The translations under genes and the position numbers were made by a program. DNA of 37,767 bases, from positions 1-37,767 of the forward strand of contig DAIDIH010000106.1 in assembly GCA_027459465.1 (NCBI GenBank), given 5' to 3'. The DNA comes from Bryobacterales bacterium. Its GTDB lineage: Bacteria > Acidobacteriota > Terriglobia > Bryobacterales > Bryobacteraceae. Positions 1,855-11,417 of the stretch are shown here, piece by piece. A model generated the notes under the pieces. That model was not told the origin of the DNA. It ran no database searches and was given only the letters and a program-made list of their open reading frames with translations. The stretch's first letter is position 1. Each line of letters begins with the position of its first letter.

Positions 1855-3087
1855 TCAACCGAGTGTGTATTCTCTCTCCCTCTTCTCCCGTGGTGGAACC
1901 GAACGATAGGTGAGCTTGAGCAGGGGCGGGGCGATGAGCGTGGTGGCCACGGACATAAAAACCACCACCCCATAGGCGCGATCGGAAACCACGCCGAGGC
2001 TCAGTCCGATTTGTGCGACCACCATCCCGACCTCGCCCCGCGGCGCCATGCCAACGCCGACGCGCATTGCGTCGGCCCAGCCCATGCCTGCCGCGCCAAG
2101 TCCGCAGCCGACAACCTTCGAAACGACGGCGGCCACGAAGATCACCAGCACGAGCAGGAGCGCATCCGTGGAGTTGAACACCGCGAGATCGACATTCAGG
2201 CCGATACCGGCAAGGAAAAACGGGACGAGGAGTTCGGAGACGCCGTGGGCGAAGTCGTGGACGCGATGTTCGAGCGACTCCGACAATGCGACGCCGGCCA
2301 GGAACGCGCCGATGATTGCCGCAACGCCGGCGTACATGGCCAGGACTCCAAGGCCGAACAGAACCACCATGGCGAGATTGAATTGCACTTCGCCGGCGTG
2401 CAGGCGCTGCTTGAGCGAGGGGACGACTCGGCCCATGGCGCGGGTGCCCCAGGTGGCGACGATCAGCGTGAAGGCGATGGCGGCCACCGCCGTGAGCGCC
2501 AACTCCGCGATGTTCAGCGAGCCGCGCGCCATACTGCTTACGACCGCGAGCAAGATGAGGCCCAGCACGTCGTCGATGACCGCGGCGGCGAGGATGATCC
2601 GGCTCGCGCGGTGCTGCAGCAGGCCCATCGCGGCCAGCACCTGCGCTGTGATGCCGACGCTTGTCGCGACCATCGCCGCGCCAACGAAGCGGGACTCGAG
2701 GCGCGGCTCACCCCAGAGTCTCATGATCGCCCAGCCGGTGACGAACGGGACGGCGACGCCGAGGATCGCAACGAGGGAAGCGGTGCGCCCGATACGCACA
2801 AGTTCGCTGGCCCGTACTTCGAGTCCGACCCGGAAGAGCAAGAACATGACACCGAGTTCCGCCAGAGCCGTCAGCACCTGATTCGGATGAATCCAGCCAA
2901 GGACACCGGGACCGATGAGCACGCCCGCCAGAATTTCACCCACGATGCCGGGCTGTTTCAGCCGCTCGAAGATTTCCGCGAATAACTTCGCGCTGCCGAA
3001 CACCGCCAGCATGGCGAGGGGAATGTTCTCCGCGTGTGGCGCGGAACCGAGCACGATCGCGGGCGCGAGCGGAGCCAGCATGGCCAT
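1855..3087 (-). CDS. CPA2-family cation/proton antiporter (KefB/NapA-like)
   Basis: Integral membrane antiporter of 410 residues with about 12 hydrophobic segments and no C-terminal TrkA-N domain. Seen: start of the exchanger domain with LAVFGSAKLFAEIFERLKQP, GEILAGVLIGPGVLGW near residue 50, the unwound-helix region ATSVGITAQVL near 141, the ion-binding IDDVLGL with the Asp pair at D172-D173, and MAPRGEVGMVVAQIG near 355. The DD pair is typical of electrogenic Na+/H+ exchangers such as NapA; KefB/C use QD, so Na+(K+)/H+ exchange is the better guess. The reading frame stays open far upstream on this strand, but similarity begins at the ATG at 3087 (a second ATG lies at 3081), and the longer frame would run antisense through the kinase gene. 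It is divergent from the cytidylate-kinase-like gene across a 96-bp gap. The C-terminus ends in a short charged tail. Confidence 0.9.
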   Translation of the reverse strand: MAMLAPLAPAIVLGSAPHAENIPLAMLAVFGSAKLFAEIFERLKQPGIVGEILAGVLIGPGVLGWIHPNQVLTALAELGVMFLLFRVGLEVRASELVRIGRTASLVAILGVAVPFVTGWAIMRLWGEPRLESRFVGAAMVATSVGITAQVLAAMGLLQHRASRIILAAAVIDDVLGLILLAVVSSMARGSLNIAELALTAVAAIAFTLIVATWGTRAMGRVVPSLKQRLHAGEVQFNLAMVVLFGLGVLAMYAGVAAIIGAFLAGVALSESLEHRVHDFAHGVSELLVPFFLAGIGLNVDLAVFNSTDALLLVLVIFVAAVVSKVVGCGLGAAGMGWADAMRVGVGMAPRGEVGMVVAQIGLSLGVVSDRAYGVVVFMSVATTLIAPPLLKLTYRSVPPREKREREYTLG

Positions 3088-3142: not shown

Positions 3143-3158
3143 TGGCACCTGTCGTGCA
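3143..3158 (+). promoter_or_regulatory. candidate sigma-54 (-24/-12) promoter for the kinase-ttcA pair
   Basis: TGGCACCTGTCGTGCA matches the RpoN consensus TGGCACG-N4-TTGCA at all positions but two in the conserved parts, with GG (3144-3145) and GC (3156-3157) at the required spacing. Transcription would begin near 3169, about 15 nt before the ATG at 3184, leaving AGGTGG (3171-3176) as ribosome site. A second, perfect match precedes the next transcription unit (4650-4665), which raises confidence in this one. Confidence 0.55.
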
Positions 3159-3183
3159 CACTGCCGGGGTAGGTGGCATCGCG

Positions 3184-3840
3184 ATGAAATACCGGATTCT
3201 TACCGTGTCCCGGGAGTACGGCAGCGGAGGCGCCCAGATCGCGCAAAGGATCGCCGGCCAACTTGGCTGGACGCTGCTCGACTCCCGGATCCTCACTGAG
3301 GTGGCGCGATCGGCGCAGGTGGACATTCGCACGGCGGGCGAGAACGACGAGCGTGTGGATTCGTGGTTTCACTGGCTGAACAAAAACGCCATGCGCGCGG
3401 CGGCGGTGTCGGCGGGGCTGAAGCTTGAAGACGCGGAATTGTTCGACGCAGAGACAATGGCGGCGTTCACACGCGAAGCGATCGAACAGGCATACACGAA
3501 GGGCGATTGCGTGATCGTCGGCCGGGGCTCGCAGTGCATCCTTGCCGGACGCACGGAAGCGTTTCATGTGTTCATTTATGGTTCCCCGGAGAACCGCCGG
3601 CGCCGCGTCGCGAGCCGGATTAAGGAAGGCGAGGACGGCGAAGCCTACATGCGCTCGATGGACGAACAGCGCGAGCAATATATCGCGCGGTTCTACGAAA
3701 AGTACTGGCGCGAGCCTCACCTTTACAACCTCATGATTTCCTCCGACCCGGGCGAAGACTACACAGCATCGACGATCCTGTACGCGATGGGGGCGAGTGT
3801 CGCCGCTACCCCGGCCGTCGCGCCGCTCAAAGCCCGATAA
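3184..3840 (+). CDS. cytidylate kinase-like family protein
   Basis: A 218-residue P-loop protein of the cytidylate-kinase-like family (AAK/Cytidylate_kin2), which differs from genuine Cmk. Seen: beta strand plus variant P-loop in ILTVSREYGSGGAQIAQRIA (residues 5-24), LLDSRILTEVA, a central VIVGRGSQCIL strand, and a lid-like segment rich in Arg (ENRRRRVASRIKEGEDG). In this family substrates are mostly unknown; members are often found in stress or antiporter neighbourhoods. The start at 3184 is chosen because MKYRILTVSREYGSGG fits the family; an in-frame ATG at 3142 would include the putative promoter. The next gene starts 9 nt after its stop, so they are probably co-transcribed. True CMP kinase activity is doubtful without a search. 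Confidence 0.8.
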   Translation: MKYRILTVSREYGSGGAQIAQRIAGQLGWTLLDSRILTEVARSAQVDIRTAGENDERVDSWFHWLNKNAMRAAAVSAGLKLEDAELFDAETMAAFTREAIEQAYTKGDCVIVGRGSQCILAGRTEAFHVFIYGSPENRRRRVASRIKEGEDGEAYMRSMDEQREQYIARFYEKYWREPHLYNLMISSDPGEDYTASTILYAMGASVAATPAVAPLKAR

Positions 3841-3849
3841 GCTGAAGGG

Positions 3850-4629
3850 ATGGAAATCGAACGCGCCCTGCTGCATAAAGTGGGCGAGGCGGTGCACCGC
3901 TTTCAGATGATCGGCGAGGGGGACCGGATCGCCGTGGCGCTTTCCGGTGGCAAGGACTCGCTGACCATGCTGGAAGTGTTGCGTCTGCTGGCCGCGCGGG
4001 CGCCCGTGCAGTTCACCGTTTGCGCGTTCACCATCGAGCAGGGTAAGTTCCTGCGGCCGATCCAGCCGCTGGGGGAGTGGTTGAAGCAGCGTGCCGTTGA
4101 CTGGACGTATTTTCACGACCGGCCCTCGCATCGCCTGCTGGCGGAGCAGCCCGGCCATGGCTGCGACTTGTGCAGCCGGTATCGCCGCAGGGCCGTCTAC
4201 GAAGTGGCCCGCTCACTCGGGGCGAACGTCATCGCCTTCGGGCATACAGCCGACGACATGTGTGAGTCGTTGCTGCGCAATGCCATGTTTACCGGACGGC
4301 TGAGCGCCCTGCCGCCGGTGACCTGGTCGCGGCAGAAGGATTTCCGCCTGATCCGCCCGCTGGTGTACGTGGGGGAGGATCTGACCGCGAAGTACGCCGA
4401 ATCGCTCGGCGCGCCGGTGATTCCCTGCGGCTGCTCCCAGCGCCCGGCCACCGTGAGGCGGTCGTTGCGCAGCATCCTCGCCGAACTCGAAGCCGAGCAT
4501 CCGCGGCTGCGGGAGACCCTGCTCGCCGCGATGGGCAATATCCATCCGGACCGGCTGCTGGACCCGCGGTTTTTCGAGGGGCAGAAGCCGGCGCCCGCGC
4601 CGGATTTGCTGCCCGTACTGGAAGACTGA
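3850..4629 (+). CDS. ttcA: TtcA-family PP-loop tRNA thiolation enzyme
   Basis: A 259-residue adenine-nucleotide alpha-hydrolase of the TtcA/TilS superfamily. TtcA thiolates cytidine 32 of some tRNAs using ATP and an iron-sulphur cluster. Seen: PP-loop SGGKDS (residues 32-37), the CxxC motif GCDLCSRYRRR with C105 and C108, GHTADDMCESLL near 131 followed by FTGRLSALPP, and PCGCSQ with C193 and C195, one of which can be the third cluster ligand. The order matches TtcA rather than TilS, and there is no TilS C-terminal domain. The family also contains paralogues of unknown target, so the exact tRNA position is inferred. It follows the kinase-like gene by 9 nt. Start ATG at 3850. Confidence 0.82.
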   Translation: MEIERALLHKVGEAVHRFQMIGEGDRIAVALSGGKDSLTMLEVLRLLAARAPVQFTVCAFTIEQGKFLRPIQPLGEWLKQRAVDWTYFHDRPSHRLLAEQPGHGCDLCSRYRRRAVYEVARSLGANVIAFGHTADDMCESLLRNAMFTGRLSALPPVTWSRQKDFRLIRPLVYVGEDLTAKYAESLGAPVIPCGCSQRPATVRRSLRSILAELEAEHPRLRETLLAAMGNIHPDRLLDPRFFEGQKPAPAPDLLPVLED

Positions 4630-4649
4630 GCGACCGCCCCCTGTTACTT

Positions 4650-4665
4650 TGGCACGGATCTTGCA
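4650..4665 (+). promoter_or_regulatory. sigma-54 (-24/-12) promoter of the usp-DUF302 operon
   Basis: TGGCACGGATCTTGCA is a perfect match to the RpoN consensus TGGCACG-N4-TTGCA, lying in the 60-bp gap between ttcA and usp. The expected start is near 4676, 14 nt before the ATG at 4690, and GGAGG at 4677-4681 gives a ribosome site with an 8-nt spacer. Promoters of this kind need a bacterial enhancer-binding protein; none is encoded in the window, and I did not identify its binding sites. Confidence 0.75.
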
Positions 4666-4689: not shown

Positions 4690-5526
4690 ATGGCGGAAAC
4701 GCTCGTGAAGGAAATTCTTTGCCCGGTGGATGGCTCGGAGCGGTCGGCGGCGGGATTGAAGGTGGCAGCGGGACTCGCCGCAGTGTGCGGCGCCCGGCTC
4801 ACGGTTCTGAAAACGCATCAGCCGGACGTGCCGCCGTATCTGACCCGAGGCGCAGCGGAGCGCGTCGAGTCCGAAATGGCGGCTAACCGTGCCGCCGAGC
4901 ACAGCGCTTTACGCGAATTTGTCAACAAGACGATCCCGGCCCAGGAAGCCGAAGTTCGGGTGGAAGACGGCGACCCGCGTGATGTCATACCGCGGGTCGC
5001 CGAGGCCCTCAACGCGAGCCTGATTGTGATGGGGACACATGCGCGAACGGGCATCGAGCGTCTGGCCGCCGGTTCGATCACCGAAGACGTGCTGCATGCG
5101 GGATCCATACCGGTGCTCACGACGGGTCCTCAGGCCCGGTTTCACGATGTATCGCCGATTGTCTGCGCCGTGAACGATTCCGAAGCAGCCCGGCGCGCGT
5201 TGAGCTACTCGGTCCGCCTGGCAGGTTGCCTCAATGCCCGCCTGGTGGTTTTGCACGTCGTGGAGGACAAGCCGCGCCGGGCGATCGCCGACCTTTGCGC
5301 GTGGGCCGGCCAGCAGGCGCCGGCAGGTTGCCAGATGCAAGAGGTGACCCGAACCGGAAATGCGGGGGAGGAAATCCTACGCGCTGCAAGCGAGATGCAC
5401 GCCGGCCTTCTGGTGATCGGCGCGGAGCACCGGAGGTTCTCCGACCATGTCATGCTCGGGTTGACGGCCGAGCAGGTGCTGCGCCATGCCGATTGCCCGG
5501 TGTTGACTGTGATAGGAGGAGAGTAA
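4690..5526 (+). CDS. universal stress protein, tandem UspA domains
   Basis: Cytoplasmic protein of 278 residues made of two UspA folds, about 1-145 and 152-278. Seen: ILCPVDGSERSAAGLKVA at the start of domain 1 and IVCAVNDSEAARRALSYS at the start of domain 2, each typical of the first Usp strand and helix. The ATP-binding pattern G-x2-G-x9-G-[ST] is imperfect: domain 1 reads GTHARTGIERLAAGS, with Ala where the second Gly is expected, and domain 2 reads GAEHRRFSDHVMLGLT. ATP binding may therefore be weak or lost in domain 2. The gene has its own sigma-54-like promoter and a GGAGG ribosome site, and its TAA is followed immediately by the DUF302 start, so the two are translated from one message. 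Tandem Usp proteins are commonly linked to hypoxia or redox stress; the role here is inferred. Confidence 0.9.
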   Translation: MAETLVKEILCPVDGSERSAAGLKVAAGLAAVCGARLTVLKTHQPDVPPYLTRGAAERVESEMAANRAAEHSALREFVNKTIPAQEAEVRVEDGDPRDVIPRVAEALNASLIVMGTHARTGIERLAAGSITEDVLHAGSIPVLTTGPQARFHDVSPIVCAVNDSEAARRALSYSVRLAGCLNARLVVLHVVEDKPRRAIADLCAWAGQQAPAGCQMQEVTRTGNAGEEILRAASEMHAGLLVIGAEHRRFSDHVMLGLTAEQVLRHADCPVLTVIGGE

Positions 5527-5910
5527 ATGTTGATTCGCGTTCCATCGTCCAGGCCGCTCGACGAAATCGGACGAGCGATTGAAGAAGCCGCCACCAAGCG
5601 GCGTTTCGGCGTTATCGCCACGCACGATCTGCAGGAAACCATGAAGCGCAAGGGCGTCGAGATGGACATGGAGTGCCGGATCTACGAGGTGTGCAACCCG
5701 GCGCAGGCCAAGCGCGTGCTCGAAGCGGACGGTTCGATTTCGACCGCGCTGCCCTGCCGCATCTCTGTCTACGGCAAACCCGGCGCGTACACGATCGCCT
5801 CAATGCTTCCCACCGAGATGATGAAGGCGTTTCCCATGCCAGAGATCGAGCCGGTGGCGCGCGAAGTGGAAGAAGTCATTAAGGGCATCGTCACCGAGGC
5901 TGCGGGCTGA
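5527..5910 (+). CDS. DUF302 domain protein
   Basis: A 127-residue soluble protein consisting of a single DUF302 domain (residues about 1-120), with no signal peptide. Seen: amphipathic N-terminal helix LDEIGRAIEEAATKRRFGVIATHDL, the segment CRIYEVCNPAQAKRVLEADG, and ALPCRISVYGKPGAYTIASMLP, all in the family order. The biochemical function of DUF302 is unknown; members recur in bacteria and archaea next to sulphur, heavy-metal or stress genes. Its ATG abuts the usp stop with no gap (TAA then ATG), so it should be translationally coupled to usp and share the sigma-54 promoter. Two Cys residues flank the centre but are not a CxxC pair. The family call is firm and the role open. Confidence 0.85.
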   Translation: MLIRVPSSRPLDEIGRAIEEAATKRRFGVIATHDLQETMKRKGVEMDMECRIYEVCNPAQAKRVLEADGSISTALPCRISVYGKPGAYTIASMLPTEMMKAFPMPEIEPVAREVEEVIKGIVTEAAG

Positions 5911-10739: not shown

Positions 10740-11417
10740 GTGGCTCTGCTTCGGCTCGAAAGCGTCAGCAAACACTACGCCACCGACGGCGCCCGCGTCG
10801 ACGCCCTCCGGGACGTAACCCTCTCTTTCAACCCCGGCGAATTCGTGTCGCTAGTCGGTCCCAGCGGCTGCGGCAAATCCACTCTCCTCAACCTCGCCGG
10901 CGCCATGGACTTCCCTTCTTCCGGCACCGTATCGATCGACGGCGTCTCGACCACCGCCCTCAACGACACCGCCCTCACCCGCCTCCGCCGCGACAAAACC
11001 GGCTTCGTCTTCCAGTCCTTCCAGCTTCTTCAGAACCTCTCCGTCGTCGAAAACATCGAGCTTCCCCTGCTGCTCGCCGGGGCGCCGCACGCCCGCAAGC
11101 GCGCCCTCGAACGTCTCGAATGGGTCGAACTCTCCGGCCTTGCCGATCGCATCCCCTACCAACTCTCCGGCGGCCAGATGCAGCGCGCCGCCATCGCGCG
11201 CGCCCTTGTCAACGATCCCCGCATCCTCCTCGCCGACGAACCCACCGGCAACCTCGACACCGCCACCGGCGCCGTCATCCTCGCCCTGCTCCGCCGCGTT
11301 GTCGACGAACACGGCACGCTGCTCCTCATGGCCACCCACAGCGCTGAAGCCGCCGCCGCCAGCGACCGCATCGTCCACCTCCGCGACGGCCGCCTCGAAT
11401 CCCCGCCCGCGCTCTGA
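10740..11417 (+). CDS. ABC transporter ATPase of the LolD/MacB/AttE type
   Basis: A stand-alone nucleotide-binding protein of 225 residues, the normal LolD size. Seen: Walker A GPSGCGKST (residues 40-48), Q-loop FVFQSFQLLQNLSVVENIELP, signature YQLSGGQMQRAAIARAL, Walker B ILLADEPTGNLD, and H-loop MATHSAEAA. The DEPTGNLD motif and the ENIELPLLLAG segment are typical of the MacB/LolD subfamily, which uses mechanical energy to move substrates in the periplasm instead of carrying them across the inner membrane. I prefer the GTG at 10740 (MALLRLESVSKHY) because family proteins start there; an in-frame GTG at 10689 would add 17 residues without similarity. No clear ribosome site is visible. The permease starts 1 nt after the stop, so the two form one operon. 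Confidence 0.88.
   Translation: MALLRLESVSKHYATDGARVDALRDVTLSFNPGEFVSLVGPSGCGKSTLLNLAGAMDFPSSGTVSIDGVSTTALNDTALTRLRRDKTGFVFQSFQLLQNLSVVENIELPLLLAGAPHARKRALERLEWVELSGLADRIPYQLSGGQMQRAAIARALVNDPRILLADEPTGNLDTATGAVILALLRRVVDEHGTLLLMATHSAEAAAASDRIVHLRDGRLESPPAL

Follow-up and report, generated by a model that had tools for sequence, protein, structure and literature searches.

What control brings together, in two successive intergenic gaps, a kinase-like gene paired with a ttcA-like gene and a universal stress protein (Usp) gene paired with a DUF302 gene, when each pair is preceded by a match to the sigma-54 (RpoN) promoter consensus? The locus lies near one end of a 37,767-nucleotide stretch of contig DNA from a Bryobacterales bacterium, and the whole of this stretch, as analyzed here, is called the window. 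Acidobacteriota rank among the most common bacteria of soils, and little is known of how they survive shortage of oxygen or energy. In the window, Pfam bore out the gene identities first assigned from the sequence (kinase-like, TtcA-like, Usp, DUF302 and an ion antiporter). The plus strand encodes a PolX-type DNA polymerase/PHP protein (14-1762), a cytidylate-kinase-like protein (3184-3840; PF13189, Cytidylate_kin2), a TtcA-like tRNA thiolation protein of the PP-loop type (3850-4629), a universal stress protein with two Usp domains (4690-5526) and, directly 3' of the latter gene, a DUF302 protein (5527-5910). The minus strand encodes a Na+/H+ exchanger (1855-3087; PF00999), divergent from the kinase-like gene and with its start inferred by comparison with the related genome G077. 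The TtcA-like gene starts 9 bases 3' of the kinase-like gene, and the two likely form one operon. Sequence inspection of the TtcA-like protein revealed the PP-loop SGGKDS and the CDLC and CGC cysteines, and TtcA is its best NCBIfam match, with a score (204 bits) under that model's cut-off of 272. The kinase-like protein matched the NCBIfam (d)CMP kinase model weakly (32 bits; cut-off, 102), and the Pfam "kinase-like" family alone fits it. Membership of the antiporter in the regulon is not supported, because the exchanger gene has no sigma-54 site of its own (best score, 1.0).

The site before the Usp/DUF302 pair (TGGCACGGATCTTGCA; 4650-4665, plus strand) matches TGGCACN5TTGCW without a mismatch, as the original prediction had claimed, and places the predicted +1 at about 4676. 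The site before the kinase-like/ttcA pair (TGGCACCTGTCGTGCA; 3143-3158, plus strand), predicted to be near-perfect, indeed has a single mismatch and a predicted +1 at about 3169. A sequence check found the GG-N10-GC spacing kept at both sites, and the distance of about 14-15 nt from the predicted start to the ATG was recovered at both genes, whose ATGs are at 3184 and 4690. The claim that such matches are very rare by chance did not survive: the consensus is about as frequent genome-wide as a reversed control. With up to two mismatches, the window contains 12 matches against 13 expected; in the 6.6-Mb genome, the exact consensus occurs 10 times versus 8 for the reversed pattern, and with up to one mismatch 122 times versus 168. 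Counting consensus matches was rejected as uninformative, since the counts nearly equal those of the controls, and the case must therefore rest on position and conservation. What goes beyond chance is conservation in sister genomes, placement at gene starts and clustering within an island of genes.

Three of the four genomes of the genus that were examined, namely the window's own (G000), G077 and G100, carry the kinase-like gene at an identity of at least 91%. Both boxes, -24 and -12, are retained in G077 and G100, the two others that keep the locus, so that the conservation in close relatives proposed as a check was indeed found, while the spacer and leader vary. The kinase-like promoter of G100 (TGGCACCAGCCTTGCT) is a full consensus match; the Usp/DUF302 promoter reads TGGCAAGGATCTTGCA in G077 and is identical to the window's in G100. 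When six promoters are compared, 62 of the 66 motif positions do not vary, versus 66 of 90 neighboring positions (p=6e-4). The four-gene order kinase-like-TtcA-Usp-DUF302 is limited to this genus. TtcA was discarded as an anchor for the locus, since 79 further TtcA loci show no linkage to comparable kinase-like, Usp or DUF302 genes. None of the 21 kinase-like paralogues checked elsewhere in the order has a strong site at its gene start, and the kinase-like promoter is therefore specific to the genus; no site precedes the Usp-DUF302 pair of G078, which is 45-48% identical.

The grouping of four genes that had been proposed is incomplete, as it forms one end of a larger island running into a second contig, C301. 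The first 141 bases of the window are exactly the last 141 of C301, and the island region is contiguous in G077 and G100. This overlap resembles an assembly-graph break, the window beginning at a contig edge. As assigned by Pfam and NCBIfam, the island encodes FtsH, a Mg P-type ATPase, a phosphoribosyltransferase, NAPRT, GroEL, an FBP aldolase/phosphatase (FBPase), a baeRF protein, an HHH protein and PolX, followed by the antiporter and the kinase-like, TtcA, Usp and DUF302 proteins. A sigma-54 site is carried by seven of the nine island transcription units. Scored in G000 with a weight matrix modelled on the published sigma-54 consensus, the sites reach 19.3 (Usp), 15.2 (FBPase), 15.0 (GroEL) and 12.8 (kinase-like), with lower values for HHH (12.1), phosphoribosyltransferase (11.1) and polX (10.9). 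They start 35-41 nt 5' of the ATG, except for HHH (~66) and phosphoribosyltransferase (~72), the last of which was located in two of three genomes. The polX -24/-12-like promoter (TGGATCGGGAGTTGCT) lies on C301, just outside the window and 35 nt before the ATG, and is present in three genomes, in weaker form in G100. GroEL and FBPase are divergent, and their sigma-54 sites lie back to back, the boxes 17 bases apart (L292:9272-9320), which leaves little room for an activator site between them. The island scan found no sigma-54 site at the baeRF gene. In the background, 8 of 650 genes score at least 10.9 and 5 of 650 at least 12; the chance of seven of nine units reaching at least 10.9 is 1.5e-12, with units treated as independent and the threshold set after seeing the scores, and that of five of nine reaching at least 12 is 3e-9, again with units treated as independent. 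Near the island in G077, a rhodanese gene has a site scoring 12.5, 47 bases upstream (L222:2908-2923), and its neighbors encode sulphur-transport, cytochrome b561 and Fe-S proteins.

Beyond the genus, the boxes at orthologues are conserved in part, FBPase being the gene examined. Of 200 genomes from the order, 12 carry an FBPase orthologue, and the nine orthologues from other genera are 75-81% identical; six of these nine have GG-N10-GC 35-48 nt before the start, and in four of them the score exceeds 11, with the site at -41 or -48. Genes for GroEL, HHH, NAPRT, phosphoribosyltransferase, baeRF or Usp recur beside several FBPase orthologues. Among 88 Usp genes of the order, which derive from related genomes and so are not entirely independent, 12 have a strong upstream site, compared with 7 of 523 background genes (p=9e-7). 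For the Usp genes, controls with the opposite strand or with the reversed or complementary pattern yielded 0-2 such sites, and shuffles a mean of 1.1 and a maximum of 3.

On these sequence comparisons, both sites of the window are very probably true sigma-54 promoters. If a short motif had instead been matched by chance and the genes were transcribed from ordinary promoters, one would understand why the consensus is not enriched genome-wide and why the second-highest matrix score in the window (14.6, at 10767-10782 on the minus strand) falls inside an ABC-ATPase coding gene, where it is itself probably a chance match. However, chance would have to keep the boxes while neighboring bases change in sister genomes, cluster the island sites at a nearly constant distance to the ATG, maintain the FBPase site in other genera and enrich sites at the Usp genes of the order, and we consider this highly improbable. 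The genome also encodes the required machinery: one complete rpoN, with activator-interacting, core-binding and DNA-binding domains, was found where the original prediction had asked for it, together with 22 strong matches to enhancer-binding proteins (EBPs). The proposal of sigma-54 promoters that drive the kinase-like/TtcA and Usp/DUF302 pairs as part of a stress regulon is thus supported by conserved sites and by the presence of rpoN and EBPs.

Which EBP would act on these promoters is a separate matter, as no activator gene lies within the island and no shared dyad or enhancer motif at the island promoters rose above shuffles. One candidate is found on contig C356, where a Usp gene is followed by a receiver-AAA-Fis EBP with GAFTGA, a receiver and a PAS histidine kinase. 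The sigma-54 promoters might be real and this EBP family their direct activator in the island: its own Usp gene has a sigma-54 site at -41, likewise at -41 in G077; a Usp gene lies within 1.5 kb at 11 of 30 loci of the family versus 0 of 43 for other EBPs of the genus; and the orthologous cluster in G096 (EBP 63% identical) adjoins a kinase-like paralogue and a Usp gene. Moreover, 7 of 13 sigma-54 Usp promoters in the order contain the dyad TGCGC-N6-GCGCA, a candidate activator site at Usp genes, which in most cases lies 64-105 bases upstream of the sigma-54 box; shuffles reach 4 at most, and the promoters used to find the dyad were also those used to count it. Against this, a search of 400 bp with up to one mismatch allowed found the dyad at no island promoter other than that of polX, where it lies far upstream, and G096 has the EBP family but lacks the island FBPase. 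The C356-type EBP is therefore not assigned to the island, and we regard its direct action there as unlikely. The Usp genes with the dyad upstream are those in L293, L295, L300, L340, L298 (the same gene as L346), L349 and L326, and several of the dyad-bearing genes adjoin one EBP family.

The reading that we prefer, and hold to be probable, is that the two sites belong to at least seven sigma-54 promoters of one stress island that would be opened together on falling energy or oxygen. The promoter sequences, their conservation, the gene content and the intact rpoN were obtained by computation; from here on, we infer co-induction, its signal, its activator and the role of each protein. RNA polymerase with sigma-54 would use these island promoters, at least seven in number, and an NtrC-type activator, triggered by falling energy or oxygen, would open them jointly. 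GroEL would then fold proteins and FtsH degrade damaged ones, the baeRF protein would park ribosomes, NAPRT and phosphoribosyltransferase would maintain NAD and nucleotides, and the P-type ATPase would move Mg2+. The FBP aldolase/phosphatase could shift metabolism to gluconeogenesis, the HHH protein and PolX could maintain DNA, and Usp may bind nucleotides; the kinase-like, TtcA and DUF302 proteins would be co-expressed as passengers, and we propose no precise role for them. By analogy with other systems, energy or oxygen limitation is our best guess for the trigger, toward which we lean slightly; a low-oxygen response would agree with work on relatives as well as with gene content. An island under sigma-54 control that answers a different stress, such as heat, magnesium or envelope stress, is a possible, less favored reading: GroEL, FtsH and the MgtA-type ATPase would suit a response to heat, membrane or magnesium stress, but Usp, NAPRT and a baeRF-type protein co-occur in a known hypoxia/dormancy regulon (PMC4428469, PMC10901736), and in another acidobacterium, Acidobacterium capsulatum, falling oxygen raises several Usp genes together with a histidine kinase (PMC11636273).

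Two described regulons invite comparison with a sigma-54 island of this content. In Myxococcus xanthus, the NmpRSTU oxygen-limitation regulon is driven by an NtrC-like regulator and sigma-54 and includes Usp and a P-type ATPase operon (PMC11841059). NtrC-type regulation, sigma-54 promoters, Usp, a P-type ATPase, a multi-component kinase/receiver system and life in soil are points of likeness. Conversely, the NmpR regulon has the cbb3 oxidase, HemN, hemerythrin, CBS proteins and the site GCGCA-N5-TGCGC, which are not features of the island, whereas the island has GroEL, FBPase, NAPRT, baeRF, TtcA and the kinase-like protein, unlike the NmpR regulon. The best match to the NmpR site at each island promoter has 2-3 mismatches, about as in shuffles and without clear enrichment. 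Among the candidate kinases, which carry PAS domains only and whose role at the island is putative, no protoglobin or heme sensor kinase was encountered. The DosR dormancy regulon of Mycobacterium tuberculosis includes Usp and NAPRT (pncB2), and Rv2629, a baeRF/Balon-type protein, is hypoxia-induced and binds ribosomes (PMC4428469, PMC10901736). In gene content, the island thus resembles the DosR regulon in Usp, NAPRT (pncB2) and the baeRF/Balon-type protein (Rv2629). The DosR regulon also has a phosphoribosyltransferase and a P-type ATPase, two further points of likeness. Hsp20 and nitroreductase, which belong to DosR-type content, were not seen in the island, and the DosR regulator and its box are unrelated to the control proposed here. 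Sigma-54 is missing from almost all Actinomycetota (PMC12316311), and the DosR regulon is therefore under another control mechanism.

Sigma-54 control of Usp genes and chaperonins has already been predicted in other phyla; in Planctomycetia, the Usp family (COG0589) and chaperonins are enriched among predicted sigma-54 targets, as both are predicted targets in the island, but the main text of that survey does not mention Acidobacteriota, and the island is not described there (PMC12316311). To date, a literature search outside which most subscription journals lay has found neither the island nor any sigma-54 Usp gene of Acidobacteriota described. We tentatively speculate that Acidobacteriota possess a dormancy or low-oxygen regulon of DosR-like content that sigma-54 controls, and that one genus has recruited a tRNA-thiolation enzyme and a kinase-like protein into it. 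If this is true, survival genes similar to those of mycobacteria would here be controlled by an unrelated mechanism, and the regulon would point to a likely condition under which the DUF302, kinase-like and baeRF proteins act. In cultured Bryobacteraceae, the proposal can be tested through its defined sigma-54 promoters, a family of candidate activators and a putative binding site.

Sigma-54 matches were also observed elsewhere in these genomes. A full match, TGGCACGCGAGTTGCW, lies near the start of a Clp-type AAA ATPase gene and is kept in all four genomes of the genus (L006, L207, L213, L202). Near-identical matches (TGGCACGCGGYTTGCA) precede large proteins that start like outer-membrane, TonB-type proteins (L003, L010, L206), and a match upstream of a small, apparently secreted protein is conserved in two genomes (L009, L200).
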